Assembly: GCA_028282195.1 (NCBI GenBank)
Contig: JANQII010000084.1
Coordinates: 1-38,091 of the forward strand
From: Prolixibacteraceae bacterium
GTDB lineage: Bacteria > Bacteroidota > Bacteroidia > Bacteroidales > Prolixibacteraceae
Length of the DNA: 38,091 nucleotides
Direction of reading: 5' to 3'
Part shown: in pieces, positions 5,401 to 36,688 of the stretch
Position numbering within the stretch: the first letter of the stretch is position 1
Layout of the letters: each line of letters opens with the position of its first letter
Translations under genes and position numbers: made by a program
Notes under the pieces: generated by a model
Seen by the model: only the letters and a program-made list of their open reading frames with translations
Told to the model about the DNA's origin: nothing
Databases searched by the model: none

Positions 5401-5847
5401 CGGTAGTGGTTGGCCTGAGGAATCTGTTACATTGCCTGAAATTGTATTGTTTTGACTTACGGCTGCAGACATGTTATCATCTCCGGAAATTACAATGTAC
5501 CGGTTAACTAGTTTATAGTTTAATCCCTGCCTTTTTACCAGTTTGTTCAGAACTTGTTCAAGTTCTTCATTTTTAATACGAATTGAAATTTCCTGTTCCG
5601 TGTCAAAAACATCGTTATCATACATAAACGAAAATTCAGTCTGACGTTCAATTTCATTGATAACATCTTTTACAGTTCCACGTTCTAATTTCAAATTTAA
5701 TTTAGTCGATTGAGCAATTGATTTGGCATGACTTATTGATAGTCCGACCATAAAAATCAAAACCAAAATCATTTTCATAATTAGTAGTCTTTTAAGCCAG
5801 GGAGAAAACCACTTTGGGCTACTTCCTGAATTCAATTTTTTTTTCAT
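2483..5847 (-). pseudogene. SusC-family TonB-dependent transporter, split by a one-base frameshift (module A)
   Basis: Outer-membrane TonB-dependent importer, partner of the adjacent SusD. The 5' part (3394-5847, 817 aa in its frame) has a signal segment (about 20-46), an STN domain (about 48-121) that talks to FecR, a carboxypeptidase-regulatory-like domain (about 135-200) and the plug (about 215-345, with GYGTQKK and LKDAGSAAIYGARA). The reading frame then shifts at 3448-3451: the minus strand reads CCTCCAAAACTTATCCC, where one more A would give PPKTYPEVLGTSAPYENA and join the barrel remainder, which ends IGVNLTF as expected for the last beta strand. Repaired length is about 1121 aa, normal for the family. 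As read, the barrel is cut and transport should be lost. The change is in a short A run, so an assembly error is possible. Confidence 0.88.
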
Positions 5848-5860
5848 AAATTTAGCCTAC

Positions 5861-5978
5861 GATTTTTGCGCATTTCACATTGCTTAGAGTTGGTGCTTGC
5901 AGCTTTGTGAAACTTGCGGTTAATAAAAATTGATATCCGGGAAGGTTTGTCATTAAAGACAGGCCTTCCTGTTTTTTT
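5861..5978 (+). ncRNA. Candidate cis-antisense RNA opposite the module A susC leader
   Basis: Predicted from a plus-strand intrinsic terminator (5940-5978) in the fecR-susC spacer plus a 5' structure (TTTCACA at about 5873 pairing with TGTGAAA at about 5906). A -7-like box TAAATTTA overlaps the susC start on the plus strand, one base off TAnnTTTG, but no -33 box is seen. Location and orientation match cis-antisense RNAs known from ECF/anti-sigma-controlled PULs in Bacteroides. The 5' end is a guess. Confidence 0.33.
5940..5978 (+). terminator. Plus-strand hairpin terminator in the fecR-susC spacer (module A)
   Basis: A 12-bp stem (GGAAGGTTTGTC / GACAGGCCTTCC, loop ATTAAA) is followed on the plus strand by TGTTTTTTT. 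Two positions pair as U-G only in the plus-strand RNA; in the minus-strand RNA they are C-A mismatches. The orientation opposes the operon and ends just before the fecR stop. Confidence 0.62.
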
Positions 5979-5979
5979 G

Positions 5980-6951
5980 TTAACTTTCTTTCATTATTCG
6001 TACTTCTTTGCCATCAATAGTATAGGTTACCGGGATAATATATTTAAAGGTTACTAATAGCTCCCTTAAACTTTCAGCCTTGACTTTGAAACTTAATCTT
6101 TGATCTTTGTTTACTGAATTATCTAAGGTTATTTTTACCCCATACCAACGTTCAAGGTACTTCACAACATCTTCAAGCCTTTCATTTTCAATGATTAATT
6201 CGCCTTCTTTCCATGATAAAATATGATTGATCCTGCCATTGCTGACTTGAAACTTATTTTGCTGTGTATCGAATGAAAGGATTTCCCCCGGCTTCATCTT
6301 TTTCAATAAATGATCTTTTTGCAGCACTTCTATACTGCCTTCAACTAAAACAACTTCTGATGTCTTGTCATCATCATAAGCTTTTACATTAAATGAGGTA
6401 CCAGATACAGCAATATCAAGGTCTTTTGATTGGACAACAAATTGCTTTGAATCATCTTTTTTTACCTTAAAAAATGCTTCACCGGTTAACTCTACATTCC
6501 TGGATTCTTTAAAATCAGCCAGGTATTTGATTTTTGAATTACCATTCAGCCAAACTTCAGATTGATCTGGTAGGATAACTTTGGTTTTGTGCCCATAAGG
6601 GGAATAAACCTCTGAATATGTTTCTGTGGTATTCAGTTTTGCCACCAATAAAGTTGCACTGATCCCTAAAAAAATTAGTAAGAAAGAAGCTGCAACACGA
6701 AGCAAAAACCGATGAAGTTCAATTCGGTTTCTATTCGCCGAAACCCGTTTTTCTACTTTTTGCCAGGCTTTATCTTTTTGGGGTATAAAAGAGTCTGGAA
6801 TATCTCCTGTCAGGGAGTAGGTCAACTTTAATTCTTCAACTATTTCTTTATTCCCTTCGTTTTCATTCATCCACTTGTCCAGATTTTCGTCTTTGGAATG
6901 ATCCGGATTAAGAATTCTTTTCTGAATATTTTCCCAGGGAATTTGGTTCAT
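5980..6951 (-). CDS. FecR-family anti-sigma factor (module A)
   Basis: Inner-membrane regulator of 323 aa that relays the SusC signal to the module A ECF sigma. Residues 1-80 are cytoplasmic and hold the sigma-binding part. One transmembrane helix lies at about 83-105. The periplasmic FecR core follows (about 117-215, with SPYGHKTKVILPDQSEVWLN, GEAFFKV and GTSFNVKAY), then a C-terminal DUF4974 region (about 250-323) that resembles the STN fold and is expected to contact SusC. The WLERWYGV-like pattern typical of this region appears as YLERWYGVKI. The gene lies 110 bp after the sigma gene, and its stop abuts the opposing terminator. Length and domain order are normal. Confidence 0.93.
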   Translation of the reverse strand: MNQIPWENIQKRILNPDHSKDENLDKWMNENEGNKEIVEELKLTYSLTGDIPDSFIPQKDKAWQKVEKRVSANRNRIELHRFLLRVAASFLLIFLGISATLLVAKLNTTETYSEVYSPYGHKTKVILPDQSEVWLNGNSKIKYLADFKESRNVELTGEAFFKVKKDDSKQFVVQSKDLDIAVSGTSFNVKAYDDDKTSEVVLVEGSIEVLQKDHLLKKMKPGEILSFDTQQNKFQVSNGRINHILSWKEGELIIENERLEDVVKYLERWYGVKITLDNSVNKDQRLSFKVKAESLRELLVTFKYIIPVTYTIDGKEVRIMKES

Positions 6952-7061
6952 ATACCTTGCTTTTTTGTATTAAGTAACGTGAGATTGGAATAACCCCTAA
7001 AAAAAAATAAATAAATTGAAATTTTATTTTAAGCTATTATTTGAATCGTGTAAGAAAGTAT

Positions 7062-9812: not shown

Positions 9813-12800
9813 TTAAAAATCAATTTTAACATTAAACCCAAAATCTCTCGTAGTAGGTAAGTTGAATGACTCAACACCTTGCAGGTTTCCAATACCAACA
9901 CCCTGTTCAGGATCAAAGTATTTTGCTTTATTGGTGATAAAGAATAAGTTTCTACCTACAAGTGATAAATTCACAGATGAGAAAGGTAATTGTTTTAAAA
10001 GCCTTTTAGGCAGTGAATAGCCGAATACAAGTTCCCTCAACCTTATATTGGTTGCGTCGAAAACAAAATCTTCAGCCGACCTGGGGTCTCTTGGGGCAAC
10101 TGCTTTCCAATATGTTTCAGCGTCGATTGCAGTATTATTTGGAGCCGTTGAAACAATATCCCCATTGTCATTGTAAGTTGCGACAACACCATCTACAATT
10201 AAGCCACCATCCCTATTGGCGAGGGTTAGCCCGCTTACCCCAATACCTGCCTGTCTGGATTGGGTATACGAAATAACTTCCCCTCCAATACGCATATCAA
10301 TAAGGAAACTTAACGTTAGATTTTTATAGCTAAACCGGTTTTTAATACCTCCGGTCCAATCCGGGTTAAAATTACCAGCGAGCACATCAAAGCCATTTGT
10401 AAATTCAGGAATACCATTTGAATCAACGATAATCTCGCCCGATGAAGTCCTCTTGAAACCACGAATATAAAGGTCCCCATACTCTCCTCCTTTCGTAATT
10501 TTACTTTCCACTAAGCGGCCTGCACCAAAAATCAATTCTTCACGTTCTCCATTTATTTCAATGATCTCGCTCGTGTACTTCGCAAAATTTGCAGTAATGT
10601 CCCATGAAAAATCCTGTTTTTTTACAGGCATGGCATTAATAACAAATTCAACCCCTTTATTTTCTACCTCACCACCATTTATCACTTCTTGTGCATAACC
10701 CGAAGATTCAGGTGTATTGATGGTAAAAATTTGATCAACAGTGTTGGTTTTAAACCAGGTGAAGTCTATGCCTAAACGATTATCAAAAAAACGGATATCT
10801 GAACCAATCTCAACAGAAGTTGATATTTCAGGCTTCAAGTTCGCATTTTTAAGCAACGGAGAGCTGGTTACAATTCCTCCATTCCCTCCGAAATAAACTA
10901 AATCAGGGGCTAACTGGTATGGAGAGGTATCGTTACCAACCTGGGCATATGATGCTCTCAATTTAAAGAAGGATAATCCATTCGGGAGTTCTTTAAACAT
11001 ATCGGATATAATTGCGGTAACACCAGCTGAAGGGTAAAAGTAAGATCTGTTATCTGAAGGTAAAGTTGAAGACCAGTCATTCCTTGCGGTTACATCCAGG
11101 AATAAATAATCTTTAAAACCTAGCTGGGTAAACGCGTAAAGCGAGTTGATCTCTTTATGAGAAAAGCCTGAGTTTGCATTTGCATTATCAAGGTTTCCAA
11201 TGGCAAAAAAGTTTCTTCGACTAAGCATTCCCCCCGAGCTCAAAGAAGAGATTTTCCTTGAAAGCGAGTTTCCACCGGCACTAAGGTTAACTGAAAAATC
11301 TTCAAAATCATCATTAAATGATATTAAAAAATCATTGTTCATTTCCCTTGTTTCAGAAATACTTTCAGAATAATACCCCTTATCACTATTGTAAGCTTGT
11401 GCTGCATATCCTTTCCCCTTTGATTTATCTGTATATTGGTCAATTCCTGATCGGATTTGGAGGCTTAGTGATTTTGTTATTTCATACTTTAGGCTTGCAA
11501 AACCAATAAACCGGCTTCTTTCGTTGCTCATTGAATTTCTTCTTTGTGCCATCCAAAATGGGTTTCCGCCTACACCGCCTATTTCATCCCTGTTGACATA
11601 ATTATACTGTATCTGACCTGTGCCATCCAGGTACTCAAAATCCTTATATTGTTCATATGGTAAACTACGTGGGAGGTTATACGCAGCAGCACCAACTGCA
11701 ACTTCTCCTGTTTCAAGAGGATTGTCTATTTTTTGGACAATATAATTTGTTTTGATATCCAATTTAAACTTATCGGAAAGATCGCTTGTTAATCTTAAAT
11801 TTATATTATGCCGGTCTAGCTCATTTCCTCCAACGATACCCTCAGCATAAGTATTGGTATAAGAAAAATATCCTTGAACATTCTCTTTACCCATTGTGGC
11901 AGAAATACCATTTGTCCAGTTTGTTCCGGTCTGGAAAAAATCCATCACATTATTGGGCTGGGGACTTAAATTATAGGATGATGGACCTGAATAATCCGGA
12001 TTGTGTACTAATTGCCAGGCTCCTACAGATTGCCCTGTCATTTTTGGTCCCCAGCTTTCCCTGGAAGTTGCACTATATGTACCCTGATTACCCTGCCCAT
12101 AAACATTTTGAAGATCAAGTAGGTCGTATGCGCCGGATACCATCAGGTTACTGGTAACACTGACTTTAATACCAGAAGCTCCCTGCCCACTTTTTGTAGT
12201 GATGATGATAACACCATTACTTGCTCTTGATCCATACAGAGCAGAAGCAGATGGCCCCTTTAGAACGGATATGGATTCAATATCGTTTGGGTTAATATTT
12301 GAGATCCCATCAGAGCTTACAGAGCGCCCAACATCAGAAGTAGGGGTACTTACAGAATTATCAATTGGTACACCATCAATCACATATAATGGCTGGTTAT
12401 TACCCGTAAGAGACCTGTTTCCCCGGAGGGTGACCCTGGAAGGACTGCCAACCCCATTGGATGTTGTTGATAAATTAAGACCTGCAATTTTACCAGACAG
12501 CGAATTAATAACATTTAACGATCTTGCCTCAGAAATTTCCTCTACATCTACATTTTGAGTAGAATAGGTCACCGTTTTCTTTTCACGCTTTATTCCTAAA
12601 GCGGTAACGATTACTTCACCTACCCCAATGGCATCTTCTTCCATAACAATGTTAAATACAGATTGCCCTGCAACTGCAATTTCCTGTGTTTTCATTCCCA
12701 CAAAAGAAAATACCAGGGTCGCATCAGAAGAAATATAGGAAAGACTGAAATTACCATCAAAATCGGTAATTGTTCCTGTTGTAGTTCCTTTTATAACAAT

Positions 12801-13238
12801 AGATACACCAGGAAGTGAAGATCCGGATGAATCGGTTACCTTTCCTGTAACATCTTTTTGTTGTAGTATTTCATTTTTAGTATTAGCAGATAAAACAATC
12901 TGACGCCCTTTGATCTCATAATCGAAATCAGCGATTGCTGAAAGTTCTGAAAGAACTTTTGCAATTGATTCATTTTTGAAATCAGCATCAATTCGCTTTT
13001 CAACATCAACATTCCCCGTGTAGAAGAATCTGTATTCACTTTGATCTTCAATAACATTGAGTAATTTTTCCAATGTTATTTGGTTTGCAGATAATGTTAA
13101 TCGTGTTGATTGGGAATAACTTTCTCCTGCGAGAACACTAAAAAAGGAAATTAGAATTAGAAAAAAGGTCAGTCTCATGATCTTTAATAGTTTTAGAATC
13201 CACGGATATGATCCATGGAAAAATGCTTTTTTTTCCAT
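9813..13238 (-). CDS. SusC-family TonB-dependent transducer (module B)
   Basis: Intact outer-membrane importer of 1141 aa. A signal segment spans about residues 18-43, an STN signalling domain about 45-118, a carboxypeptidase-regulatory-like domain about 128-205 (LPGVSIVIKGTTTG, TDFDGNFSL) and the plug about 215-345 (SLSGKIAGLN, PLYVIDGVPIDNS, LKGPSASALYGSRASNGVI). The beta barrel fills the rest and ends with FGFNVKIDF, a standard final strand with terminal Phe. The plug opening is VTALGIKREKK instead of VGYGTQKK, the variant that commonly goes with SusD_2 partners. The STN domain and the upstream FecR/sigma pair show it also acts as the signal receptor. The start ATG sits in the shared AAATTTATG context. 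Confidence 0.95.
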   Translation of the reverse strand: MEKKAFFHGSYPWILKLLKIMRLTFFLILISFFSVLAGESYSQSTRLTLSANQITLEKLLNVIEDQSEYRFFYTGNVDVEKRIDADFKNESIAKVLSELSAIADFDYEIKGRQIVLSANTKNEILQQKDVTGKVTDSSGSSLPGVSIVIKGTTTGTITDFDGNFSLSYISSDATLVFSFVGMKTQEIAVAGQSVFNIVMEEDAIGVGEVIVTALGIKREKKTVTYSTQNVDVEEISEARSLNVINSLSGKIAGLNLSTTSNGVGSPSRVTLRGNRSLTGNNQPLYVIDGVPIDNSVSTPTSDVGRSVSSDGISNINPNDIESISVLKGPSASALYGSRASNGVIIITTKSGQGASGIKVSVTSNLMVSGAYDLLDLQNVYGQGNQGTYSATSRESWGPKMTGQSVGAWQLVHNPDYSGPSSYNLSPQPNNVMDFFQTGTNWTNGISATMGKENVQGYFSYTNTYAEGIVGGNELDRHNINLRLTSDLSDKFKLDIKTNYIVQKIDNPLETGEVAVGAAAYNLPRSLPYEQYKDFEYLDGTGQIQYNYVNRDEIGGVGGNPFWMAQRRNSMSNERSRFIGFASLKYEITKSLSLQIRSGIDQYTDKSKGKGYAAQAYNSDKGYYSESISETREMNNDFLISFNDDFEDFSVNLSAGGNSLSRKISSLSSGGMLSRRNFFAIGNLDNANANSGFSHKEINSLYAFTQLGFKDYLFLDVTARNDWSSTLPSDNRSYFYPSAGVTAIISDMFKELPNGLSFFKLRASYAQVGNDTSPYQLAPDLVYFGGNGGIVTSSPLLKNANLKPEISTSVEIGSDIRFFDNRLGIDFTWFKTNTVDQIFTINTPESSGYAQEVINGGEVENKGVEFVINAMPVKKQDFSWDITANFAKYTSEIIEINGEREELIFGAGRLVESKITKGGEYGDLYIRGFKRTSSGEIIVDSNGIPEFTNGFDVLAGNFNPDWTGGIKNRFSYKNLTLSFLIDMRIGGEVISYTQSRQAGIGVSGLTLANRDGGLIVDGVVATYNDNGDIVSTAPNNTAIDAETYWKAVAPRDPRSAEDFVFDATNIRLRELVFGYSLPKRLLKQLPFSSVNLSLVGRNLFFITNKAKYFDPEQGVGIGNLQGVESFNLPTTRDFGFNVKIDF

Positions 13239-13251
13239 AAATTTGAACTTA

Positions 13252-13326
13252 GTTTGATTAGTAATTATTTATTATTCAACTTAGTTGAGAAGTAGAAAGT
13301 GCCATTTTCTGCTTCTCATTTTTTTT
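13252..13326 (+). ncRNA. Candidate cis-antisense RNA opposite the module B susC leader
   Basis: A RNA of roughly 75 nt is predicted from a TAAATTTG box (13238-13245, matching the Bacteroidetes -7 consensus TAnnTTTG on the plus strand) and a plus-strand terminator at 13286-13326. It would cover the whole susC 5' leader. No -33 element is seen, and the box overlaps the susC start codon, so the promoter is uncertain. Confidence 0.35.
13286..13326 (+). terminator. Plus-strand hairpin terminator in the fecR-susC spacer (module B)
   Basis: A 13-bp stem (TGAGAAGTAGAAA with TTTCTGCTTCTCA) is followed by T8 on the plus strand. The only imperfect position is a U-G pair in the plus-strand RNA but a C-A mismatch in the minus-strand RNA, so the structure fits an RNA opposite to the operon. 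Confidence 0.62.
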
Positions 13327-13372
13327 GCAAGTTCGATTTGTTTGTTTGCTTTAATTTTTATCCATAGGCAAT

Positions 13373-14353
13373 CTATTTTGATTTTAATGTAAATATTCTT
13401 GTTGTATTATCGTAGCTGTAACTGATTGAAGCTGCTTTACTAACTAAATCCATAACTTCGCTTACTGTTTCCATCTCAATTGTACCTGAATACCACATCT
13501 CTTCAAGTTTAGGGTCATTGTATTCGATGTCGATATTGTACCAACGTTCCAATTTCCTAATAAAGCTTGGGAAAGGTTCCTTGTTAAAAATCATTTTTCC
13601 ATCTTTCCATGAGGTATAATATTGGGGTTCAATACTTTTTACTTTGAGTTGATTATTTTCCAGGTAGGCATGCTGATGAGGTTTTAAACGAACAGTTTGT
13701 TTGTTATCATTTTGCTGAATATCAACACTCCCTTCAACCAATGTTACTTCAAAATATTCTTCATCAGAATAGGCTTTAACATTGAAAGATGTTCCGTGAA
13801 CAGTGATATTGCCCAATCGGGTTGAGACAATAAACGGTTTCTTACTTTCTTTAACATCAAAAAAAGCTTCTCCTGCTAACTTTACATTCCTGGATTTGCC
13901 AAACTTCCCGGGAAAAGAAGCATTAGATCCTGAATTGATCCACATTACAGAACCATCTGGTAAACTCACATCGGTTTTTACGCCATAAGGTGTTTTTATG
14001 TGTCGTACGTCTTTGGCTATATTTTGTGATGAGAAATTATTGACCAAGAGCGAAGAACCAATTATCAATCCAACAACTAAAACTGCTGCAATTTTTAAAG
14101 CAGTCTTGTAAAGTTTTAGTTTCTTGTTTAATCGTAAATTGTCAGCATAGTTTATTTCACGAATAATACGTTTAAAAAGCGACGGGTTCGTTTTTGGCTC
14201 CTCTTCATCATTACTTAACTGGTTTTTCCAGTAAGGTTCCATATAACTAATGATTTCCGGATCATTAGCCTTGTTTTTCAGATAATCAATTACCGCACTG
14301 GCTTCTTCAGGATTGCATGTTGAATGAACGTATTTTGAAAAGAGTTTTTTCAT
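13373..14353 (-). CDS. FecR-family anti-sigma factor (module B)
   Basis: Single-pass inner-membrane regulator of 326 aa for the module B sigma. The cytoplasmic part (1-82) begins MKKLFSKYVHSTC. A transmembrane helix lies at about 85-105. The FecR core (about 118-220) shows TPYGVKTDVSLPDGSVMWIN, GEAFFDVKESKKPF and GTSFNVKAY; the C-terminal DUF4974 region (about 255-326) has LERWYNIDIEYNDP. The gene is separated from its sigma by 219 bp, longer than in the other modules, because of a palindrome-rich insert. Reads as intact and typical of the family. Confidence 0.93.
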   Translation of the reverse strand: MKKLFSKYVHSTCNPEEASAVIDYLKNKANDPEIISYMEPYWKNQLSNDEEEPKTNPSLFKRIIREINYADNLRLNKKLKLYKTALKIAAVLVVGLIIGSSLLVNNFSSQNIAKDVRHIKTPYGVKTDVSLPDGSVMWINSGSNASFPGKFGKSRNVKLAGEAFFDVKESKKPFIVSTRLGNITVHGTSFNVKAYSDEEYFEVTLVEGSVDIQQNDNKQTVRLKPHQHAYLENNQLKVKSIEPQYYTSWKDGKMIFNKEPFPSFIRKLERWYNIDIEYNDPKLEEMWYSGTIEMETVSEVMDLVSKAASISYSYDNTTRIFTLKSK

Positions 14354-16511: not shown

Positions 16512-17718
16512 CCAGGGCAAACGCATCTAATTTTTTAAAATTTTAATCAAATAGTTATTATCCCACCCCGCATCAAGCCTTTTCCCCTTCACGCTCCTCT
16601 TTTTAGGTTCATTTTTTAACAGGTTAAGGGCTATCCTGTTGATTATTGAAAAATTTTGTGCAGCATGCCCACTGCGTTTCCTGCTCTTGTCTTCCCCAAA
16701 TGCAACATCAAGTACCCAATGCAGGGAGTTTTCGATACCCCAATGTTCCCGGATGCTTTTGCCGATCTTCTCAGGGCCTGGGGGGGCAACTGCTAATGTC
16801 CAGGCGGGTTTCAGATTCTTCTTTCCCTGAGGACTTGTGGTACCTTGTTGCTTCTACTTTTACAATGCATTTTAACGACCCCCATTTTTCAGGGCTTTCA
16901 ATATGTGAAAGGTCCGTATAAACAGAACATTTCCTTGTTTCTATCCTACCGTGACCAAAATCCGAGCTTTCCCATTCGCTGTCAGGTCCTTCTAACTTTA
17001 CAGTGTCCCGGACTTGTCCTTCTAAACTTCCCTGGTTCCCTTTTACGGCCAGGATATAATTGGCCCCTTTCTTTATTATCTTTTCTGCGATTTTAGTTTG
17101 GCAGCCCATGGCATCTATTGTCACTATACACCCATTTATTACCAATACGTCCAATAGCTTTGGGATGGCTGTTATTTCATTGGATTTATCGTTTACTTTT
17201 ACCTGCCCAAGCGACAATTGGTTTTGGTTTGCCCATGCACTGACCATATGTACAATTGATTTTGGGCCCTTGGCCCTTGACCCACATATAGATTTGCCAT
17301 CTATGCCGATTACTTCACCTTGTGTTAAAACCGAAATAGAACGCACCCACTTCAGGAAACATTCTTCCAATTTTTCCGGGTCCAGTGCACTGTAAACCCT
17401 GTTAAAGGTATCATGGGAAGGGATACCGTTGGGCAATTGTAAAAAACCTTTTAACCAGGGTTCTTTTGATTTGCCATAGTTCTCTATATCGTTCCAGGTT
17501 TCCGCACCACAGATGACTGCTGCTATGGTAATAAAAATAATGTCCTGCAACCCATGTTCCTTTGTGCGTTCAACACGGGGGTCTTCTAATCCTGAAAAAT
17601 AATCAATCGGTGTTTTCATCGTTTTTCTTGTGAAGGAAACACACAAATATTGAATATCAATGAATTAATAACAAGAATTATAACAAGCAGGGTGTTAATT
17701 TAGATGCGTTTGCCCTGG
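16512..17718 (-). mobile_element. ISAs1-family insertion sequence, 1207 bp
   Basis: Bounded by perfect 19-bp terminal inverted repeats, CCAGGGCAAACGCATCTAA at 16512-16530 and its inverted copy at 17700-17718. The ends resemble the CAGGGC start common in the ISAs1 family, and the length is typical. It contains a single transposase gene that is frameshifted. No convincing 8-10 bp target duplication is seen in the flanks (GGATGAATG left, ACATTCGGA right). It sits at the 3' end of the module C operon. Confidence 0.88.
16527..17619 (-). pseudogene. ISAs1-family DDE transposase, frameshifted
   Basis: Transposase starting at the ATG 17617-17619 (MKTPIDYFSGLEDPRVERTK, the classic ISAs1 opening). The N-terminal DDE-associated domain includes IPSHDTFNRVYSALDP; the catalytic part includes EVIGIDGKSICGS (first Asp), VTIDAMGCQTKIAEKI (second Asp) and ILAVKGNQ. 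At 16780-16786 a run of seven G (C on the coding strand) breaks the frame: as read, translation stops after SSCPPRP at about 16771. With six it continues PPGPEKIGKSIREHWGIENS (holding the last catalytic Glu region) and on through LDVAFGEDKSRKRSG to the TAG at 16527-16529. So one inserted base, or a homopolymer error, inactivates it. Confidence 0.87.
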
Positions 17719-20007: not shown

Positions 20008-20041
20008 AACGATACTGTTGTATTTATTAAATTGTGTTAAA

Positions 20042-21046: not shown

Positions 21047-21058
21047 AATTAAATTTTT

Positions 21059-22003: not shown

Positions 22004-22024
22004 CGTTATCTGTTTTTTAATTTT

Positions 22025-22726: not shown

Positions 22727-22737
22727 TTTTATTCTTT

Positions 22738-25488: not shown

Positions 25489-28400
25489 TTAAAAATTGAT
25501 TTGTGCACCAAATGAATATACAGAAGTTTGAGGATATCTTGATTCTGCATCACGATTATCAACTTCTGGATCTACATCCCATTCATTAAGTTTTGAAAAG
25601 GTAAGCAGATTGGTTCCTGAGATAAAAATATTCATCATTTCAACACCTATCTTTTCAGTAATAACCGAAGGTATCTGATATGACAATTGGGCGACCTTTA
25701 GACGAAGGTAATTCCCATTCTGTATATTTCTGTCTGACAGTTGTGTATTACGCACTTCAAATTTAGTAGGACGAGGGAAACGTGCATCAGGATTATCCGG
25801 GGTCCAATAATTATCAGTGAAAATTTCATGCGTGAACCCGCCCCAAATACCCATTTGCATAATTGCTCCTCCAACATATCGTTTTGTACCTGCAGCACCT
25901 TGAAAAAATAAATTTAAACCAAAGTTTTTATAGCTTAGATTAATATCTGATGAGAATGTATATTTTGGGAAGAATGATCCACCAAGGTAAGTCATATCTC
26001 CATTATTAATTACACCATCATTATTCAAATCCAAATATTTTACATCTCCAGGTGCAGCTCCTGTCTGAAGGGTTGGATAATTTGCAACTTCCTCTTCAGT
26101 CTGGAATAAGCCGTCAGTTCTATATCCCCAAAATCCTCTATAGGGTAAACCTTCATCAATAACAAATCTTATTTCAACATCACCAACAATATTGGGACCT
26201 GTCCCTGCTAAATCAACTACCTCATTTTTGTTTGTACTAAAAGTTTGGGTAAAATCCAAACCAAAGTGGCCGAATCTGTTTCTCAAGCCTAGTTCAAATT
26301 CAAATCCCATATTATCAACAATTCCGGCATTTTGTACGGAAGGTCGTAATCCAAGTGTACCGGGAACCGGTAATCGCAATAATATCCCATCAGTTCTTTT
26401 CTTATAATAATCTGCAGTAAAAGAAATTTTATTATCTAAAAAAACGAGATCCATACCCACATCCCATTGCGAAGTTGTTTCCCAATGAATATCCTTATTC
26501 GCCAATGTATTTCTGTAATAACCTTCTGCAATGGTGTTATTAAAAGCATATAAACCTTTAGTTAACGTGTCAAAATAGCTATATAATCCAACTGCCTGAT
26601 TCCCTGTTACACCATACGACCCTCTAACTTTAAATTCATTAACAACATCCACAAGACTACTCCAGAACTTTTCTTGCGAAATACGCCAACCAGAAGAAAA
26701 AGAAGGGAAAAAACTATATTTATTGTCACCATAAAAGCGGGATGAACCATCATACCTGGCATTGGCCTCAAATAGGTATTTCCCGTTATATGAATAGTTC
26801 AGACGGGTAAAATAAGAACGTAATCCCCAAGTATATTCACTTCCAGAATTGTCTTTTGTTCCATCATCTGTTCCTTGACTTAATGATTGTATATCATTGC
26901 TATAAAAATTCCGACGATACGCTGACATGTTATTCCCCTCGTGAAAAATTTCAGAATAACCCAATAATACATCTATTTGATTATTATTGATTGCTTTTGT
27001 ATAGTTCAATATGTTGTTAATAGTTATCTCACTGGTATATTCTCTCCCCTCTGTCAGTGAATTTACTGACTGGGACTTTTTTATTATTTCCTGATTATAA
27101 TAATCATGTATTTCATATTTATTCTGGTATCTTTTTTTGTTTCCAAAATTTAAACTGCCTGCTATTTGTGATTTAAAGTGTAATCCTTCAACTATTTTCC
27201 AGTTAACATTTAAACCTCCAACTAAATAAGACCAAATTTCTTTATTAATTCCACTTTTTTCTGCATACATAAGTGGACTATGTCCATCGGAACTAATACC
27301 ATATGTTCCATCCGGATACCTGGGAACTGTCCATTGCGATGTTTGAAGCATTGTATAAACTGACCTAAATTCCTCTACTGGCCTGATTATTTTCTTTCTT
27401 CGAAAATTTAAATCAGCTGAAACATTTAACTGATCGGAAATTTTAAAATCAGTATTAGAACGAACCTCATAGATGTCTGAACTAAAATTGGTTATAACAC
27501 CTTCCTGGTCTACGTAACGTAAGCTTAAATACGACTTAGTTTTATCATTTCCACCAGTAGCAGAGATTGTATGACTGTGCATTGGGGCAATCTTCAACAT
27601 AGCATCATGCCATTTATTAGGAAACGGATATTTTATACGATCTGTAGCATTAACGTATTCTTCTATATAACTTTCAGTGTATATTGGTTCACCAGTAGTA
27701 TTTATCCAGGCAGTATTTTGCATTCTCATATAATCTTCCATTTCCATATGAATGGGTATATTATTGGACTTTTGTAAGCCGAAATAACCATTATATGAAA
27801 TTTTAACACTACCCTCTTTTGCTCTTTTGGTTGTAATAAGTATTACGCCATTTGCGGCTCTTGAACCGTATATGGCTGTAGAAGAAGCGTCCTTTAATAC
27901 CGAAACAGACTCTATATCCTGCGGATTAACATCTTCAAAATATTGTTCAATTCCATCAACAATTACTAATGGATTGGTGTCCCCCAAAGATGTTATTCCC
28001 CTTATGTTTAAACTTAAGTTTTGTCCTCCCGGAGCGCCTCCTTTATCAGTTATTGTTAGACCTGTCAAACGCCCCTGAAGTAATTGCCTGACATCGGTCG
28101 AAGGCCTGGCTTTTAATGTTTCTCCGTCAAGTGCGCCTACTGCACTGGTAAGACTAACTTTCTTTTGGGTTCCATAACCAACAGCAACAACTTCCTCAAT
28201 ACCAATGGCATCTTCTTCCATAACAACGTTAAAGACAGATTGTGCCGCTGCTTCAACTTCCTGAGTTTTCATACCCAAAAAGGAAAAAATCAAAGTTGCA
28301 TCTTCAGGTACATTTGTAAGACTGAAATTTCCATCAAAATCAGTAACAGTACCTATAGTGGTGCCTTTAATTATAATCGAAACACCAGGAAGTGGTTGGC

Positions 28401-28821
28401 TCGAAGAATCGGATACATTACCTGTTACATTTTTTTGTTGAACAGAGTTTGACTTTATTTCTTTAGGATAAAGTACAATTCTGCGATCCGTTACTTTGTA
28501 AGTAATTTCTTTGCCATTCAATAACTCATCCAGAATCTCGCTAACTGATTTGTTTACAAAGCTTAAGTTTACTTTGTCATCCAGCTCGATTTGATCTGCG
28601 TTGTAAAAGAAAACGTAGTTTGATTGATCTTCAATCAATCCTAAAGCATCTTTTAAAGCCAAATTGTGAACATTCATGGTTAGTTTCGATTGTTGAGAAT
28701 AACTAACAGCTGAAACTTTCATTAAACCAATAAGAATGATCAAAAATGTAAGTCGCATAATCCTTAATAGTTTAGTTATGCCATTCCAGGGAAAGGCACA
28801 AGGTTTTTCCTTTTTTTTCAT
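25489..28821 (-). CDS. SusC-family TonB-dependent transducer (module C)
   Basis: Intact outer-membrane importer and signal receptor of 1110 aa. A signal segment covers about 18-42, STN domain 45-115 (ALGLIEDQSNYVFFYNADQ), carboxypeptidase-regulatory-like domain about 130-205 (QPLPGVSIIIKGTTIG), plug about 215-345 (VAVGYGTQKKVSLTSAVGAL, LVIVDGIEQY, LKDASSTAIYGSRAANGVI). The barrel ends SFGAQINF. The STN domain places it under the FecR/sigma pair upstream. Start codon in the CAAATTTATGAAAAAA context shared by all four susC genes. Nothing is broken. Confidence 0.96.
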   Translation of the reverse strand: MKKKEKPCAFPWNGITKLLRIMRLTFLIILIGLMKVSAVSYSQQSKLTMNVHNLALKDALGLIEDQSNYVFFYNADQIELDDKVNLSFVNKSVSEILDELLNGKEITYKVTDRRIVLYPKEIKSNSVQQKNVTGNVSDSSSQPLPGVSIIIKGTTIGTVTDFDGNFSLTNVPEDATLIFSFLGMKTQEVEAAAQSVFNVVMEEDAIGIEEVVAVGYGTQKKVSLTSAVGALDGETLKARPSTDVRQLLQGRLTGLTITDKGGAPGGQNLSLNIRGITSLGDTNPLVIVDGIEQYFEDVNPQDIESVSVLKDASSTAIYGSRAANGVILITTKRAKEGSVKISYNGYFGLQKSNNIPIHMEMEDYMRMQNTAWINTTGEPIYTESYIEEYVNATDRIKYPFPNKWHDAMLKIAPMHSHTISATGGNDKTKSYLSLRYVDQEGVITNFSSDIYEVRSNTDFKISDQLNVSADLNFRRKKIIRPVEEFRSVYTMLQTSQWTVPRYPDGTYGISSDGHSPLMYAEKSGINKEIWSYLVGGLNVNWKIVEGLHFKSQIAGSLNFGNKKRYQNKYEIHDYYNQEIIKKSQSVNSLTEGREYTSEITINNILNYTKAINNNQIDVLLGYSEIFHEGNNMSAYRRNFYSNDIQSLSQGTDDGTKDNSGSEYTWGLRSYFTRLNYSYNGKYLFEANARYDGSSRFYGDNKYSFFPSFSSGWRISQEKFWSSLVDVVNEFKVRGSYGVTGNQAVGLYSYFDTLTKGLYAFNNTIAEGYYRNTLANKDIHWETTSQWDVGMDLVFLDNKISFTADYYKKRTDGILLRLPVPGTLGLRPSVQNAGIVDNMGFEFELGLRNRFGHFGLDFTQTFSTNKNEVVDLAGTGPNIVGDVEIRFVIDEGLPYRGFWGYRTDGLFQTEEEVANYPTLQTGAAPGDVKYLDLNNDGVINNGDMTYLGGSFFPKYTFSSDINLSYKNFGLNLFFQGAAGTKRYVGGAIMQMGIWGGFTHEIFTDNYWTPDNPDARFPRPTKFEVRNTQLSDRNIQNGNYLRLKVAQLSYQIPSVITEKIGVEMMNIFISGTNLLTFSKLNEWDVDPEVDNRDAESRYPQTSVYSFGAQINF

Positions 28822-28834
28822 AAATTTGTGTTAC

Positions 28835-28918
28835 TTGATTAATAAATAATGAATAGCTCGAACTATTCGTTAATTAATTGATTCCGGGAAATGCTCGAAC
28901 ATTTCCCGGTTTTTTTTT
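28835..28918 (+). ncRNA. Candidate cis-antisense RNA with twin CUCGAA loops (module C)
   Basis: About 84 nt predicted on the plus strand, from a TAAATTTG box at 28821-28828 to a T9 tract at 28918. It contains hairpin 1, GAATAG-CTCGAA-CTATTC (28851-28868), and hairpin 2, the terminator CCGGGAAATG-CTCGAA-CATTTCCCGG (28884-28909). Both carry the same loop. The RNA would be antisense to the susC leader and end in the fecR stop codon. The 5' end is inferred; no -33 box is seen. Confidence 0.42.
28884..28918 (+). terminator. Plus-strand terminator overlapping the fecR stop (module C)
   Basis: Perfect 10-bp GC-rich stem, 6-nt loop, then T9 (28910-28918) on the plus strand. The T-tract runs into the TAA stop of fecR (28917-28919). 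On the operon strand the run is A's ahead of the stem and no T-tract follows, so it works as a terminator only for opposite-strand transcription. Confidence 0.7.
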
Positions 28919-29927
28919 ATCGTTTATCTATCCATATTTCATCGTTGTTTTTTCTAACATTAATTGGAATTGTGAGGCTGATCGCTTCAATTAACTCATC
29001 AATGGTTTCATCGCTATAAAGACTACCGGAGTATCTCTCATTTTTCAAACTTTCATCTTCAAAAATGATGGTTGTGTTATAAGCCCTTTCTATTGTTTTT
29101 GCAAGATCTTCCAATGTAATATCCTCGAAGTAGTACTCACCATTTCGCCAAAGCGTTGATATTTGCGTATCCACTTCTTTCACATTCATTTTCCGGTTAG
29201 ATTTATTAAGTTGCCACTTTTGTCCGGGTTTTAGCAAAACAGGTTCTTTATGCCCTAAAATGTGATCTATCTGAATACTGCCTTCTATCAAAGTAGTTTC
29301 TATGTTTTTGTTGGTTTTGTATGCATTCACATTAAACTCAGTACCCAGAACATTAATGTTCATATCAGGAGTTTTCACTCTGAAAGTTCTCTTTTTGTTT
29401 TTATTCACTTTAAAAAATGCTTCTCCTTCCAGTTTTACTTCCTGCAGTTTTTTATTTTGATCAATTTTGTAGTGTAAACGGGTATCGTAATTTAAAGCAA
29501 CAAAAGTTCCATCGGGTAAGCTTATTTCTGATTGCTGCCCTTTTGGTGTCTTAATTTCAATGTACTCCGATTGTGAAACTTTGGAAGTAAACAAGTTTGA
29601 TTCTCCAATAAGAAATCCACCAATAGTAAAAAGAAGTAAAACTGAAGCTGCAGCTGCAACCTGGGAATATTTCTTAAATTGTGATGAACCGGAAGGACTG
29701 TTTAAGAATATTTCTTTTGAATGTTCTTTTATTTCTGAAAAATCACCTGAACCTACTGTGTTGTTTTCTAATTCTTTTCTTTTGAATTTTAGTACATATG
29801 TAATCAGTGTAGCCCAGGCATTTTCTTTATCTTCTTTCTTTAAACGGGCATAATCCTGAATGGAGTTTTTTGATACCCCTTCCTGAAATTTGCGGCTGAA
29901 TAAGCGATCAATTAATGTTGATTTCAT
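28917..29927 (-). CDS. FecR-family anti-sigma factor (module C)
   Basis: Single-pass regulator of 336 aa. Cytoplasmic N-terminus (1-86) rich in Lys/Glu, transmembrane helix about 88-108 (VAAAASVLLLFTIGGFLIG), FecR core about 120-225 (TPKGQQSEISLPDGTFVALN, GEAFFKVNKNKKRTF, GTEFNVNAYKTN) and a DUF4974 end (about 265-336, EDITLEDLAKTIERAYNTTI, NERYSGSL). It should hold the module C sigma factor until the SusC STN domain signals ligand. Gap to the sigma gene is 79 bp. Typical length; no defect. Confidence 0.93.
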   Translation of the reverse strand: MKSTLIDRLFSRKFQEGVSKNSIQDYARLKKEDKENAWATLITYVLKFKRKELENNTVGSGDFSEIKEHSKEIFLNSPSGSSQFKKYSQVAAAASVLLLFTIGGFLIGESNLFTSKVSQSEYIEIKTPKGQQSEISLPDGTFVALNYDTRLHYKIDQNKKLQEVKLEGEAFFKVNKNKKRTFRVKTPDMNINVLGTEFNVNAYKTNKNIETTLIEGSIQIDHILGHKEPVLLKPGQKWQLNKSNRKMNVKEVDTQISTLWRNGEYYFEDITLEDLAKTIERAYNTTIIFEDESLKNERYSGSLYSDETIDELIEAISLTIPINVRKNNDEIWIDKR

Positions 29928-30866: not shown

Positions 30867-31604
30867 ATGGCAAACATTGAAGACTACAATGCTAAATTAG
30901 AAACAATTAAAGCAATTTCTGACGAAGAAGTTAAACAACCCAACATTCCTGTAGATGCAGCACTGCAGGAAAATGAAAACCTGTACCAATGGTGCCTGAA
31001 GAATGCTGCAAGGTTGGCAACAGCAGGGATTACACAGGAAATGCTGGATGACTTTCCTGTCCGTATTGGTACTTGTTGTGAAGCTGAATCAATCTGGAAC
31101 AAAGATTTCCGTTCACAAAAGGAAGCTCAAAAACAATGGAGCGAACAATCGCCTTTGGTCTATGAACTTCGAGACAGGCTTTTGCACACCATGTGCTTTG
31201 CTTACAGAAAAGATGTAGCATTACTAAAACGGGTAGCTGCTATTGCAGATGGAAATGGTCATGCAGATATGATCCAGGATCTAAATGATTTGTCTGTGTT
31301 GGGAAAAGAAAATCCAGACCCGTTAACAGCTGTAAGTTTTGATTTAACAGAACTTGACACCTCAGCAGCAACCTCTGATGATATGGCAACTCTACTGGCT
31401 GAAGTCAATGGGGATAGGGCAGGGCAAAATGAATCGAAGGTTATCCGTGATAAAGCTTATCATTACATGAAGGAATTGGCTGATGAGATTTGTGCAGCTG
31501 GGAAGTTTTTGTTTTGGAAGAATGAGAACAGGTACAAAGGGTATATCATTCAATACAGGAAAAAACATAGGAAAAGTAAGTCCGTTGCTGAATATAATGC
31601 ATAA
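30867..31604 (+). CDS. Hypothetical protein, helical, unknown function
   Basis: A 245-aa plus-strand protein that I do not recognise. It starts MANIEDYNAKLETIKAISDE, is charged and mostly predicted helical, without signal peptide or membrane segment, so probably cytoplasmic. Notable are a GTCCEAES cysteine pair near residues 68-75, an Ala-rich helical middle, an acidic stretch (TELDTSAATSDDMATLLAEV) and a strongly basic tail (RKKHRKSKSV) after an aromatic FLFWKNENRYKGYI segment, which could bind nucleic acid. It stands alone between the MITE and module D, opposite in strand to everything around, so an inserted cargo gene is possible. An A/T-rich leader without Shine-Dalgarno precedes the ATG. 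Codon use resembles the neighbours. Confidence 0.75.
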   Translation: MANIEDYNAKLETIKAISDEEVKQPNIPVDAALQENENLYQWCLKNAARLATAGITQEMLDDFPVRIGTCCEAESIWNKDFRSQKEAQKQWSEQSPLVYELRDRLLHTMCFAYRKDVALLKRVAAIADGNGHADMIQDLNDLSVLGKENPDPLTAVSFDLTELDTSAATSDDMATLLAEVNGDRAGQNESKVIRDKAYHYMKELADEICAAGKFLFWKNENRYKGYIIQYRKKHRKSKSVAEYNA

Positions 31605-33193: not shown

Positions 33194-36100
33194 TTAAAAA
33201 CTCAGGTTCACGCCTAGTGTAAATGTTTTTGGATTTGGGAAAGATGCATAGTCCATACCTGCACCATTAATTGCAGATGAACCTCCACCCTCAGGGCTAT
33301 TGGCTTCTGGGTTAAAACCAACTACGTACTTGTCATGCAAGTATAAATTTTCAGCAGAAAAATAGACCCTTGCTTTAGAAATATATTTACCAAGTAGGTT
33401 TTGGTCAATTTCATAACCTATCGTTAAATTTTTTATCCGCCAGTAATCCCCATCAAACAAATCCAAGGTAGTTTCCTTTGCATTTCCATCTGAGTACGGA
33501 AATTGTCCACCAGACACTCTCGGGTATTTTGCATCTGTGTTTTCAGTTGTCCAACGATCAGCAAAGTAAGCATACTTATTGTGCCTTCTTCCAATCGAGT
33601 TAAAGTTCCCGGGCTCCCTTCCAGCTGCATTGTATATTTTATTTCCCCCGGCACCTGCAATCACCATGCTTACATCAAAGTTTTTGTATTTTAAGGTATT
33701 TGTAATACCGAAGGTATATTTTGCCATAGGTTGTCCTACTACGGCACGATCCTCTTCATTTATCTTTCCATCATTATTTATATCTGCAATTTTAACATCG
33801 CCAACGCGGGGGGTACCCACATCATATTCAACATTATGGGCATCCAATTCAGCCTGATCATTGTAGATACCATCTGCTTTCCACATATATAAAGAACCAA
33901 TTGCTTCGCCCACACGTGTAAGGTTGCTTTTGGCATACCAGGGACCATCCAGTATTTCAGCATCCGGCTCATTCATTTTTGTTACTTCGTTATCATTAAT
34001 ATTGAATACAAAAGTAGTCCTCCATGATAAGTCGTTCTTTAAAATATTTACGGACGTAATTTCCAGGTCAATACCTTTATTTACAACCTCTCCAACATTT
34101 TGCCTTCCCTGGCTGTATCCTGAGATTGTGGGAAGGGGTACGTTCAACAGAAGATCCGAGGTCGTATTTTTGTAGTAGTCAGCATTTAGCTGTAATCGCC
34201 CATTCCATAAGCCTGCATCCAGTCCCAGGTTAATCGAATTGTTTTTTTCCCATTTTAATTCAGGGTTTTCTACCTGGCTTGAATTTACAGCATATCCCCC
34301 TACGGGTGAACCATTGAAAACAGCAGTTACTGGTGACAACAATCCATATTGGTCATAATCCCCGATTTGATTATTTCCTGTCTGCCCCCATGAAAAGCGC
34401 AGTTTTAATAAATTCATTATTGGAATGTTAAAGAATTCCTCATTATTGATTTTCCAACCAACAGAAGCAGCAGGAAATATCCCCCAGCGTGTATTGGAAC
34501 CAAAACGGGAACTACCATCCCTTCTGACGCTTACACTTAAAAGGTATTTATTTTCATAACCGTACATCACTCTTCCTAAATAGGAAACCAGCCCCCAATT
34601 ATTGATATTATTGCTTACATTGCTGAAAGTTGTTGCTCCATTCAACGTTGGAACCGTACCATTGGCGAATCCATCACCCCTGATTGCAGAATTCTCAGTA
34701 TTTTGTTTCTGTGAAGTGTACCCTAATAATAAGTCAACATTATGCTTTTCAAATGATTTATCATAATGAAGAGTTGTTTCACTAAGCCAGTTCGTCGAAC
34801 GAGTTGTCCACCGCTCAGCCCTGATGGCATCCCAACGGTTACCAGGGTTAAATTTACGCCTGTCTGTACTTACATAAATAAACCCGAAGCTTGATTTTAA
34901 TGCCAGGCCAGGTAATAATTCGACATTGATATAAGTATTACTAAGTATCTGACCTCTTTTTAAATGATCATCAATAAATTCGGCCCTATCCAGTGATCTT
35001 GATCCTTCAACACTTAATCCATATAAAGGATTTTCGTAAACCATAGCTTTTGCCGGATCATAACTATTAACTCGATATACATCAAGTGGGACAAAAGCAG
35101 CATGGGCCAAAATATGGTTCAATGCATTCCCTTTACCATGTGTCTGGGTTTCTTGTTTATCACTGTAGCCCGCTTCAATACTGGAGCCAATCTCAACATG
35201 AGGGTTAATTTTGAAACTTGCATTCATGCGCGATGTAAGTTTTTCAAAACCGGCACCTTGAATAATACCATCCTGATCATAATAATTGATACTTGCGAAA
35301 AAATTAGATTTGTCGGTTCCACTGCTCAACGAAATCTCATGCCCCTGGACATTACCAGACTTGAAGAAATCTTCAATATGGTCATAACTTTCATCTTCGG
35401 GAATATTCCAATCCACAAAAGAGCCGGTTCCGTTTACATCTTCATAAGCTTCTTTGATTAAGCTCCTTTGCTCCGGGCCACTAAGCATATCTATTAACTT
35501 TTCGGCACGCTGGATTCCAACATATCCATTGTATGAAACGTCGATTTTCCCCTTTTGCCCTTTCTTTGTTGTAATTATTACAACCCCACCAGCACCTCTG
35601 GATCCGTATATTGCAGCAGCAGAAGCATCTTTTAACACTTCAATTGATTCCACCGCATTCATATTCAGGGTTCCAATAATACTTGCATCAAGTATTGGAA
35701 GTCCATCAATTACATACAATGGACCGCTCCCAGCATTAATCGAATTTACCCCTCGGATCATGAACTGAGGCGAACTGCCCGGACCTCCATTTCCCTGCCT
35801 GACAGTGACACCAGCTAATTGCCCTTGTAATGCAGTTTCCAAACGCCCAACGGGCCTGTTTCCCAAAACTTCAGATTTTACTTTAGATACGGAATAAGTA
35901 AGGTCAGCACTTTTTTTAAAACCATATCCTACTGCAACAACCTCTTCAATGCCAATTGCATCAGCTACTAGCGTAACATTTATTAAGGTCTGATCGCCAA
36001 TTTGAAGTTCCTGTGAAATCATCCCCACAAAGGAAAAAATCAGAGTCGCATCATCTGGGACATTCCCCAAAGCAAAGTTTCCATCAAAATCAGTAATCGT

Positions 36101-36577
36101 TCCCTGAGTCGTACCTTTAATAATGATTGAAACGCCAGGTAAAGGTTGCCCTGAAGAATCAGATACATTTCCTGTTACATTTTTCTGTTGAGTTGAATTA
36201 ATAATGGATTTTGAAGACTTTAGTACAATAAAGTTATTTTCCATGATTTTGTACACAACACTCTTTTGCTTAAATAATTCATCAAGAACTTCTTTAATGG
36301 TACTATTTTCAACATCCAGGTTTAGTTTTTCATTGACATTGAGCTTTGCCTCTTCATAAAAGAACCGGTATTCACTTTGTTCTTCAATCAGTTCAATTAC
36401 TTCACGAATTGAGATATTTTCTTCATTTAAGCTAAACCGTTTATTCTGGGAATAGACGGAAGCTGTACTTTGGAGAATTCCCAATACCATAAAAATCAGA
36501 AATAGTTTCATAATTAAAAATCCTTTTCGAATCAGACGAATTGCTCCGTCATCATCCATTTTCTTGTTTTTTTTCAT
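33194..36577 (-). CDS. SusC-family TonB-dependent transducer (module D)
   Basis: Intact importer of 1127 aa. Signal segment about 20-44, STN domain about 47-118 (VIELIEEQSEYRFFYEEAKL), carboxypeptidase-regulatory-like domain about 132-207 (QPLPGVSIIIKGTTQG), plug about 213-345 (VAVGYGFKKSADLTYSVSKV, LYVIDGLPILDA, LKDASAAAIYGSRGAGGVVI). The barrel ends TLGVNLSF. The periplasmic-side domains are very like those of modules A and C, while the barrel differs, as expected for different ligands. STN and the adjacent FecR imply ECF control, although no sigma gene is in view. Confidence 0.96.
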   Translation of the reverse strand: MKKNKKMDDDGAIRLIRKGFLIMKLFLIFMVLGILQSTASVYSQNKRFSLNEENISIREVIELIEEQSEYRFFYEEAKLNVNEKLNLDVENSTIKEVLDELFKQKSVVYKIMENNFIVLKSSKSIINSTQQKNVTGNVSDSSGQPLPGVSIIIKGTTQGTITDFDGNFALGNVPDDATLIFSFVGMISQELQIGDQTLINVTLVADAIGIEEVVAVGYGFKKSADLTYSVSKVKSEVLGNRPVGRLETALQGQLAGVTVRQGNGGPGSSPQFMIRGVNSINAGSGPLYVIDGLPILDASIIGTLNMNAVESIEVLKDASAAAIYGSRGAGGVVIITTKKGQKGKIDVSYNGYVGIQRAEKLIDMLSGPEQRSLIKEAYEDVNGTGSFVDWNIPEDESYDHIEDFFKSGNVQGHEISLSSGTDKSNFFASINYYDQDGIIQGAGFEKLTSRMNASFKINPHVEIGSSIEAGYSDKQETQTHGKGNALNHILAHAAFVPLDVYRVNSYDPAKAMVYENPLYGLSVEGSRSLDRAEFIDDHLKRGQILSNTYINVELLPGLALKSSFGFIYVSTDRRKFNPGNRWDAIRAERWTTRSTNWLSETTLHYDKSFEKHNVDLLLGYTSQKQNTENSAIRGDGFANGTVPTLNGATTFSNVSNNINNWGLVSYLGRVMYGYENKYLLSVSVRRDGSSRFGSNTRWGIFPAASVGWKINNEEFFNIPIMNLLKLRFSWGQTGNNQIGDYDQYGLLSPVTAVFNGSPVGGYAVNSSQVENPELKWEKNNSINLGLDAGLWNGRLQLNADYYKNTTSDLLLNVPLPTISGYSQGRQNVGEVVNKGIDLEITSVNILKNDLSWRTTFVFNINDNEVTKMNEPDAEILDGPWYAKSNLTRVGEAIGSLYMWKADGIYNDQAELDAHNVEYDVGTPRVGDVKIADINNDGKINEEDRAVVGQPMAKYTFGITNTLKYKNFDVSMVIAGAGGNKIYNAAGREPGNFNSIGRRHNKYAYFADRWTTENTDAKYPRVSGGQFPYSDGNAKETTLDLFDGDYWRIKNLTIGYEIDQNLLGKYISKARVYFSAENLYLHDKYVVGFNPEANSPEGGGSSAINGAGMDYASFPNPKTFTLGVNLSF

Positions 36578-36590
36578 AAATTTGAAAACT

Positions 36591-36688
36591 GTTAGTTAAA
36601 CATGGTGCTATTGACTGCGAATCGATTAGCACGGTTAATTATCACTAGCGAAGCCGGAAAATACTGCGAATATTTCCCGGCTTTTTTT
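36591..36688 (+). ncRNA. Candidate cis-antisense RNA with twin CUGCGAA loops (module D)
   Basis: About 98 nt predicted on the plus strand between a TAAATTTG box (36577-36584) and a T7 tract ending at 36688. Hairpin 1 is GCTATTGA-CTGCGAA-TCGATTAGC (36607-36630, one bulge and one U-G pair); hairpin 2 is the terminator GCCGGAAAATA-CTGCGAA-TATTTCCCGGC (36653-36681). Both have the loop CUGCGAA, and a GGTTAATT stretch lies between, parallel to module C. The 5' end is inferred. Confidence 0.42.
36653..36688 (+). terminator. Plus-strand terminator overlapping the fecR stop (module D)
   Basis: 11-bp stem with a 7-nt loop followed by T7 on the plus strand, running into the fecR TAA (36687-36689). One internal position is an A-C mismatch on the plus strand but a G-U pair on the minus strand, so unlike modules A and B this single site favours the other strand; the T-tract still points to plus. 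Confidence 0.62.

Follow-up and report, generated by a model that had tools for sequence, protein, structure and literature searches.

Four fecR-susC spacers lie in a 38,091-nucleotide (nt) stretch of DNA from a Prolixibacteraceae bacterium (GenBank assembly GCA_028282195.1, contig JANQII010000084.1, positions 1 to 38,091; hereafter the window). Each spacer carries a hairpin and a T tract that face against the operon. What, then, do these terminator-like elements terminate? Our answer is that each fecR-susC spacer is, very probably, a small antisense RNA gene of the DonS type, one per module, whose product most likely lowers susC-susD expression. The operons of the four modules (A to D) are encoded on the minus strand, and the predicted RNAs on the plus strand. 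A scan of the window with Rfam 15 gave zero matches at the gathering threshold.

Opposing terminator-like hairpins in the fecR-susC spacers

A preliminary description of the window reported a hairpin of 10-13 base pairs (bp) followed by 7-9 T on the plus strand in all four spacers. The sequence at all four sites bears out the hairpins and T tracts, and the stems were measured as 10-15 bp. The terminator hairpins were located at 5938-5971 (T tract 5972-5978) in module A, 13286-13318 (T tract 13319-13326) in module B, 28884-28909 (T tract to 28918) in module C, and about 36650-36684 (T tract to 36688) in module D, all on the plus strand. As had been described, no T tract directly follows the stem on the operon strand in the four window modules; on that strand of module A, a T5 run begins about 9 nt past the stem. 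The imperfect positions of modules A and B pair as U-G only in the plus-strand RNA, in the direction previously given; their number is not three but five, i.e., 3 in module A and 2 in module B.

A simple terminator scan of the window was near background overall, i.e., 24 vs. 17.3 ± 3.9 and 16 vs. 13.6 ± 4.1, and the imperfect stem of module D was missing from its list. The evidence therefore rests on repetition, which was followed in the genome to which the window belongs (5.84 Mb, 348 contigs; hereafter the own genome). The FecR_C profile gave 81 matches, of which 63 were taken as FecR genes and 18 as STN domains of SusC; such an STN match is also seen in the window (12894-13085, minus strand). 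SusC was directly downstream of 58 of the 63 FecR genes. Among the 58 SusC, 43 were found in the 56 listed TIGR04056 matches (56 of 142 candidates were scored), and the others were assigned by N-terminal similarity and position. Six of the 58 start codons were shifted downstream to the first M[KE][KLIEN].

The five FecR genes not followed by SusC (C37, C263, C33, C251, and C279) were left out by eye. No receptor was directly downstream of FecR in C37 and C263. In C33, C251, and C279, the frames after FecR were of another receptor- or STN-like kind, with lengths of 519, 848, and 886 amino acids (aa) and spacers of 18, -29, and 74 nt, and the -7 box described below was not seen in these three spacers. 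A seventh start codon shift belonged to C279. As controls, 57 fecR starts and 12 susC genes without fecR were used, the latter being 13 from the TIGR04056 list minus one cut off at a contig end.

Of the 58 own-genome spacers, 52 have a strong antisense hairpin, and 44 have a strong one that comes with a T tract (5 T or more out of 9). The hairpin with T tract was rare in the controls (1/57 fecR starts and 1/12 susC without fecR). Judged from the sequence, the recurrence of these signs in fecR-susC spacers is not chance.

Promoter-like box on the susC start codon

No promoter was reported in the preliminary description. A promoter-like box was now found over the susC start codon itself. The susC start CAAATTTATG, read antisense, is TAAATTTG, which matches TAnnTTTG, the -7 element of the Bacteroidota primary sigma factor as described in PMC7366714. 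At all four susC starts of the window, the plus strand reads TTTTTT(T/C)CATAAATTT(G/A). The box is TAAATTTG at 13238-13245 in module B, 28821-28828 in module C, and 36577-36584 in module D. In module A it is TAAATTTA at 5847-5854, with one mismatch, and its first T complements the A of the susC ATG.

The box is placed at -12 to -5 in the account of Flavobacterium psychrophilum in PMC9723704. With this position, the antisense starts are predicted at about 5859, 13250, 28833, and 36589. The predicted plus-strand RNAs are therefore 120 nt (5859-5978, module A), 77 nt (13250-13326, module B), 86 nt (28833-28918, module C), and 100 nt (36589-36688, module D), ending at or near the fecR stop. Over the 52 own-genome loci with a strong hairpin, the predicted length was 71-121 nt with a median of 83. 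A weak A/T-rich preference, about TTTAGTTAATAAT, was seen over the 58 loci just past the predicted RNA start.

The box was exact at 50 of the 58 susC starts and within one mismatch at all 58. It could be a mere translation-initiation context of STN-type susC (CAAATTTATGAAA), with the terminators ending longer antisense transcripts from inside susC. This reading fits a match that coincides with the start codon, and it fits the result that no conserved -33 element was seen over the 58 loci. It is improbable, however, in view of the controls: the exact box was found in 0/12 of the susC without fecR (2/12 within one mismatch), and no box within one mismatch was found at the 57 fecR starts. The terminal G of the box, i.e., the sense-strand C located 7 nt before ATG, was also kept in 52 of the 58 loci. 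To our knowledge, this C is not part of the translation-initiation context of Bacteroidota.

The promoter-like pattern is also specific to these loci. Genome-wide, TTTTTTCATANNTTTG had 47 matches compared with 3 for the reversed pattern. Forty-two of the 47 were at the susC starts of fecR-susC modules, and the remaining five open frames of merely 5-25 aa. All 44 spacers with hairpin and T tract carried the box within one mismatch, so that box and strong terminator occurred together in 44/58 fecR-susC spacers vs. 0/69 controls (0/57 fecR starts and 0/12 susC without fecR).

Occurrence in related genomes

Relatives were collected from a wider contig set by an exact 22-nt start-codon pattern, which selects the box, so the result is not a measure of frequency. 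Forty exact loci were obtained, and 37 of them were SusC starts. FecR was directly upstream in 32 of the 37; among the other five, four were at the end of the available stretch and one (L109) had another open reading frame (ORF) upstream. Loci with FecR included those of Maribellus, Draconibacterium, Sunxiuqinia, Mariniphaga, Puteibacter, Marinifilum, Chitinophaga, Litoribacter, Algoriphagus, and Parapedobacter; several of these ten are represented by metagenome bins.

A second set was made of relatives within the family Prolixibacteraceae, chosen by high FecR_C score and not randomly, with only identical spacers removed. The box was exact in 58 of these 87 family spacers and within one mismatch in 81. 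Some genomes may recur between the named-genome and family sets.

A covariance model was built on 18 own-genome terminator hairpins, including that of module C; its E-values are approximate, and the 18 necessarily match. At E ≤ 10 it gave 61 own-genome matches, and 59 of them were in 35 distinct fecR-susC spacers; the two outside had E-values of 0.56 and 3.3. It matched 34 of 41 family genomes and, at E ≤ 0.001, 20 of 99 genomes of the class, the own genome being included in both counts. Of the class matches, 3 of 11 non-own loci were fecR-susC spacers. Both further matches of G167 were fecR-susC spacers, and 0/7 further matches of G175 had FecR or SusC.

As a separate observation, two loci of another family of the order (L266 and L267 in f10, about 1435-1560) contain a comparable unit of promoter and hairpin whose body is conserved, with no fecR match. 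The unit adjoins a gene judged by eye to be butyrate kinase-like, and it looks like an unrelated intergenic small RNA.

Strand of the predicted RNA

A hairpin in DNA can be read from either strand, and the strands differ in their wobble pairs. The stem finder treats G-T and A-C alike and favors neither strand. Because stems were picked for pairing, wobble asymmetry is a better test than kept pairing. In the own genome, G-U outnumbered A-C on the antisense strand by 58:3 (58 loci, 703 pairs; the picked hairpin was weak or another hairpin of the spacer in six loci). For the relatives, spacers were kept if they had a strong hairpin and fell within the limits on mismatches and spacer length; they gave 25:1 in 27 of the 31 spacers of named genomes and 78:13 in 80 of the 87 family spacers, i.e., 103 to 14 when pooled. 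More T after the stem than A before it was counted in 49/58 own-genome, 25/27 named-genome, and 77/80 family spacers. The preliminary description was open to refutation by relatives that lack the T tract and keep the stem on the minus strand only. The outcome was the opposite, with stems and T tracts favoring the antisense strand. The proposed set of plus-strand cis-antisense RNAs is thus strongly supported by the recurrence in 58 own-genome spacers and in relatives, and by the -7 box at the susC start.

These counts bear on two readings in which the hairpin has no antisense RNA. In the first, the hairpin serves the sense fecR-susC mRNA as a leader or attenuator, and the plus-strand T tract simply reflects A-rich sequence past the fecR stop. 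Such A-rich sequence does often follow fecR, and the sense strand also folds better than its shuffles (z -3.5 to -6.1). This is very improbable, however, with wobble pairs lying on the antisense strand at 58:3, 25:1, and 78:13. The covariance model, moreover, scored higher on the antisense strand in 24/24 of the spacers matched on both strands, e.g., 46.0 bits plus vs. 34.2 minus in module C and 28.2 plus vs. 25.0 minus in module D. Nor does this reading account for the antisense box, which lies at the opposite end of the spacer.

The second holds that the palindromes are DNA operators, of the extracytoplasmic function (ECF) sigma factor or another regulator, and not RNA structures; they do sit where a susC promoter could be expected. 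We give this reading next to no credence. It offers no reason for a one-strand preference of G-T over A-C or for a one-sided T tract, and the stem letters vary by locus with the pairing kept. Across 134 stems (loops of 5-8 nt), 12 positions remained paired although their letters differed between loci.

Folding energies were compared for the four spacers. Module A gave -47.2 kcal/mol on the antisense strand (z -7.0) and -29.6 on the opposite strand (z -4.2), and module B gave -24.0 (z -6.4) and -12.7 (z -3.5). Module C had z -6.1 on both the antisense and the sense strand, and module D had -28.9 (z -3.6) on the antisense and -27.2 (z -3.8) on the opposite strand.

A further hairpin is often found upstream (5') of the terminator. 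In the window it was placed at 5860-5932 in module A, 28847-28872 in module C, and about 36605-36632 in module D, within the predicted plus-strand RNA. Upstream hairpins were present in 80/165 spacers vs. 13.6 in letter-shuffled ones, with G-U vs. A-C at 75:4 on the antisense strand. From this wobble asymmetry, both the terminator and the upstream hairpins look selected as antisense-strand RNA.

Antisense transcription could instead act by interference, i.e., occlusion or collision, with the RNA doing little and the terminator insulating fecR from antisense read-through. The box on the start codon, a transcript confined to the spacer, and a terminator at the fecR stop would all suit this. We regard it as unlikely; it needs neither an upstream hairpin kept as antisense RNA nor the non-random loop content described below.

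Points weighing against the antisense RNA reading

Several results count against small antisense RNA genes in every spacer. The box was inexact in 8 of the 58 own-genome spacers, module A included, and the -33 element is missing as noted. The strict detection of box and terminator succeeded in no more than 44/58, and the covariance model matched 35/58 spacers and missed 23, with modules A and B among them. On the question of strand, A-C positions are not negligible in the family relatives (13 vs. 78), folding energy does not separate the strands for modules C and D, and one position of the module D stem (A-C on the plus strand, G-U on the minus strand) favors the sense strand, as the preliminary description had stated. 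The box was also uncommon outside the family, being found in 4/26 of a class sample and at 8/31 FecR ends of an order sample, counts that exclude boxes cut short (three by overlapping genes in the class, one in the order); 3 of the 29 loci of the order sample are also in the class sample. As for the effect, positive correlations between such RNAs and their loci are reported for Bacteroides thetaiotaomicron in PMC10994844, and repression may therefore not be universal.

Proposed mechanism

We infer transcription, its exact start, repression, and loop-first pairing of the antisense RNAs from the above features. Transcription by the housekeeping sigma factor would begin at the -7 box over the first codon of susC and run against the operon. 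An RNA of about 71-121 nt would result, complementary to the spacer, with a variable 5' hairpin in about half of the loci and a 3' terminator hairpin. Its U-tract end would fall on or close to the fecR stop, and it would stay within the spacer, leaving the start codon uncovered. A transcript that runs from just outside the susC start codon to fecR would pair with the susC leader, possibly by the hairpin loops first. The antisense polymerase on the start codon may also collide with or occlude sense transcription. In this way the RNA would hold susC-susD low until sense transcription driven by the ECF sigma factor exceeds it, probably keeping the cluster off as long as its sugar is absent. By analogy with DonS, each antisense RNA probably represses its own module.

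Loop sequences

The loops were searched for YUNR, the U-turn motif. YUNR on either strand was present in 107/165 loops vs. 61.2 ± 5.9 in shuffled loops, and in 77/131 unique loop 8-mers vs. 50.1 ± 5.3. The enrichment was weaker in strand-collapsed unique 6-mers (38/101 vs. 27.9 ± 4.4). Ordinary terminators showed no excess, i.e., 27/48 vs. 24.1 ± 3.2. The YUNR excess fits loop-first pairing without proving it.

Two window modules carry an identical loop in both hairpins. The 8-nt loop GCTCGAAC occurs at 28856-28863 and 28893-28900 in module C, and the 9-nt loop ACTGCGAAT at 36614-36622 and 36663-36671 in module D, all on the plus strand. At least 7 bases common to the terminator loop and the upstream spacer were found in 5/58 own loci (0.35 expected), and in 1/27 and 2/80 of the relatives (0.04 and 0.51 expected), so this is a minority feature. 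One orthologue of module C (G012) differs from the window by the same change in both loops, CTCGAA to CTCCAA, which is no more than suggestive; in another (G008), the two loops were not kept equal.

A more far-reaching reading can be put forward tentatively, and we hold it to be doubtful. The first codon of susC would be the -7 element of its own antisense RNA, locking receptor and repressor together base for base. The leader would be recognized through the loops, and the twin loops of modules C and D would be a locus address that limits cross-talk among nearly 60 systems.

Two general rules for the loops were tried and rejected. A shared loop in both hairpins gave an own-genome mean longest match of 4.0 vs. 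3.78 ± 0.11 in permutations, a difference due to the 5/58 loci with 7 or more bases in common. Complementary loops, i.e., intramolecular pairing, gave an own-genome value of 3.40, below the permutation mean of 3.74.

Comparison with known antisense RNAs

The DonS-type antisense RNA is, as a kind, already known from gut Bacteroides. DonS and DonS-like cis-antisense RNAs of Bacteroides fragilis were reportedly described by Cao et al. in 2016. The DonS family of that species is presented in PMC7366714 as RNAs of 78-128 nt that negatively affect susC homologues, and PMC11697453 gives the mechanism as unknown. The RNAs predicted here resemble DonS, as far as these accounts describe it, in being divergently encoded at the 5' end or leader of a susC homologue, here as a sequence prediction. 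They share the ECF sigma/anti-sigma setting of DonS-type polysaccharide utilization loci (PULs), with FecR in 4/4 window modules. The length is also similar, at 71-121 nt, with some predicted RNAs falling a few nt below 78. An own promoter and an intrinsic terminator, both DonS-type traits, are present as sequence features, both strictly in 44/58. Beyond what these accounts describe for DonS, every one of the 58 fecR-susC modules in a single genome has the box here with at most one mismatch, and the box lies on the start codon.

PUL-associated antisense RNAs of B. thetaiotaomicron were counted as 10 and later as 32, and five, then two more, were validated by Northern blot, according to PMC7366714 and PMC10994844. 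Such RNAs correlate with their PULs inversely in some cases and positively in others, as reported in PMC10994844. These RNAs have the same DonS-like orientation opposite to susC. They were found from expression, as those sources present them, whereas the RNAs here are predicted by a sequence rule, i.e., start-codon box and hairpin.

The FopS RNAs are described as repressing susC at the translation start region, and 4 of 14 FopS are antisense RNAs (PMC7366714, PMC11697453). The GibS/FopS family, as characterized there, also consists of small RNAs with terminator hairpins, and the deposition of an Rfam model is stated in PMC11697453. FopS has a shared single-stranded 5' seed for several PULs; here the 5' end shows the weak A/T-rich preference of about TTTAGTTAATAAT. 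Kissing-loop antisense systems with a YUNR U-turn are represented by hok/Sok and pIP501 RNAII/III in PMC6562991. These systems are likewise cis-antisense, with YUNR in the loops of one partner or the other, and the likeness here is an enrichment at the sequence level only.

The literature searched, as far as its sources cover the matter, yielded no paper reporting these RNAs from Prolixibacteraceae, a promoter box that overlaps the first codon of susC, or U-turn loops in the RNAs, and these points may already be in print. The promoter box fused to the start codon, the YUNR loop excess, and the paired hairpins with one common loop in modules C and D are possibly new. If the proposal is true, antisense RNA is a standard, near-obligatory part of the sigma/FecR/SusC glycan-uptake modules in one environmental Bacteroidota family, and antisense control is not a special case of gut Bacteroides. 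The rule of a start-codon box plus a hairpin at the fecR stop would then predict RNAs without RNA data, up to 58 in the own genome, and specificity among parallel antisense systems would become directly testable.

Genes of the window

Pfam matches placed FecR upstream and an STN-type SusC downstream of the spacer in 4/4 modules, all on the minus strand. The FecR anti-sigma factor of module A (PF04773 and PF16344) was found at 5980-6951, and the N-terminal part of its SusC at 3394-5847. FecR and SusC were located at 13373-14353 and 9813-13238 in module B, 28917-29927 and 25489-28821 in module C, and 36687-37676 and 33194-36577 in module D. The fecR stop codons of modules C and D extend into the antisense T tract. 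ECF sigma genes were present in modules A, B, and C; the sigma gene of module D, if any, is beyond the window end.

The module A SusC is seemingly split into overlapping minus-strand frames of 817 and 316 aa (3394-5847 and 2483-3433). Either a frameshift or an error in the sequence would explain this, and Pfam gave no match for the 316-aa frame.

Near the fecR stop, 21 of the 58 modules carry TGCCTATG or a similar motif on the sense strand, with A-rich sequence after it. It was seen at 13363-13370 of the window (minus strand) and at 20 other own-genome loci. It has no fixed distance from the stop or the hairpin and is possibly a sense promoter element; when it was considered as the susC promoter, no partner element was found.

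Modules B and C are separated by a transposase-like ORF at 16771-17646 on the minus strand (DDE_Tnp_1_assoc and DDE_Tnp_1). Following module C, the minus strand at 17827-23778 encodes a URO-D-like protein, a protein without Pfam match, a pfkB kinase, a ureide-permease/sugar-transport-like protein, and an FGE-sulfatase-domain protein. A 245-aa ORF that matched nothing in Pfam lies on the plus strand at 30867-31604, opposite to the operons, in the stretch from the module C sigma gene to module D.

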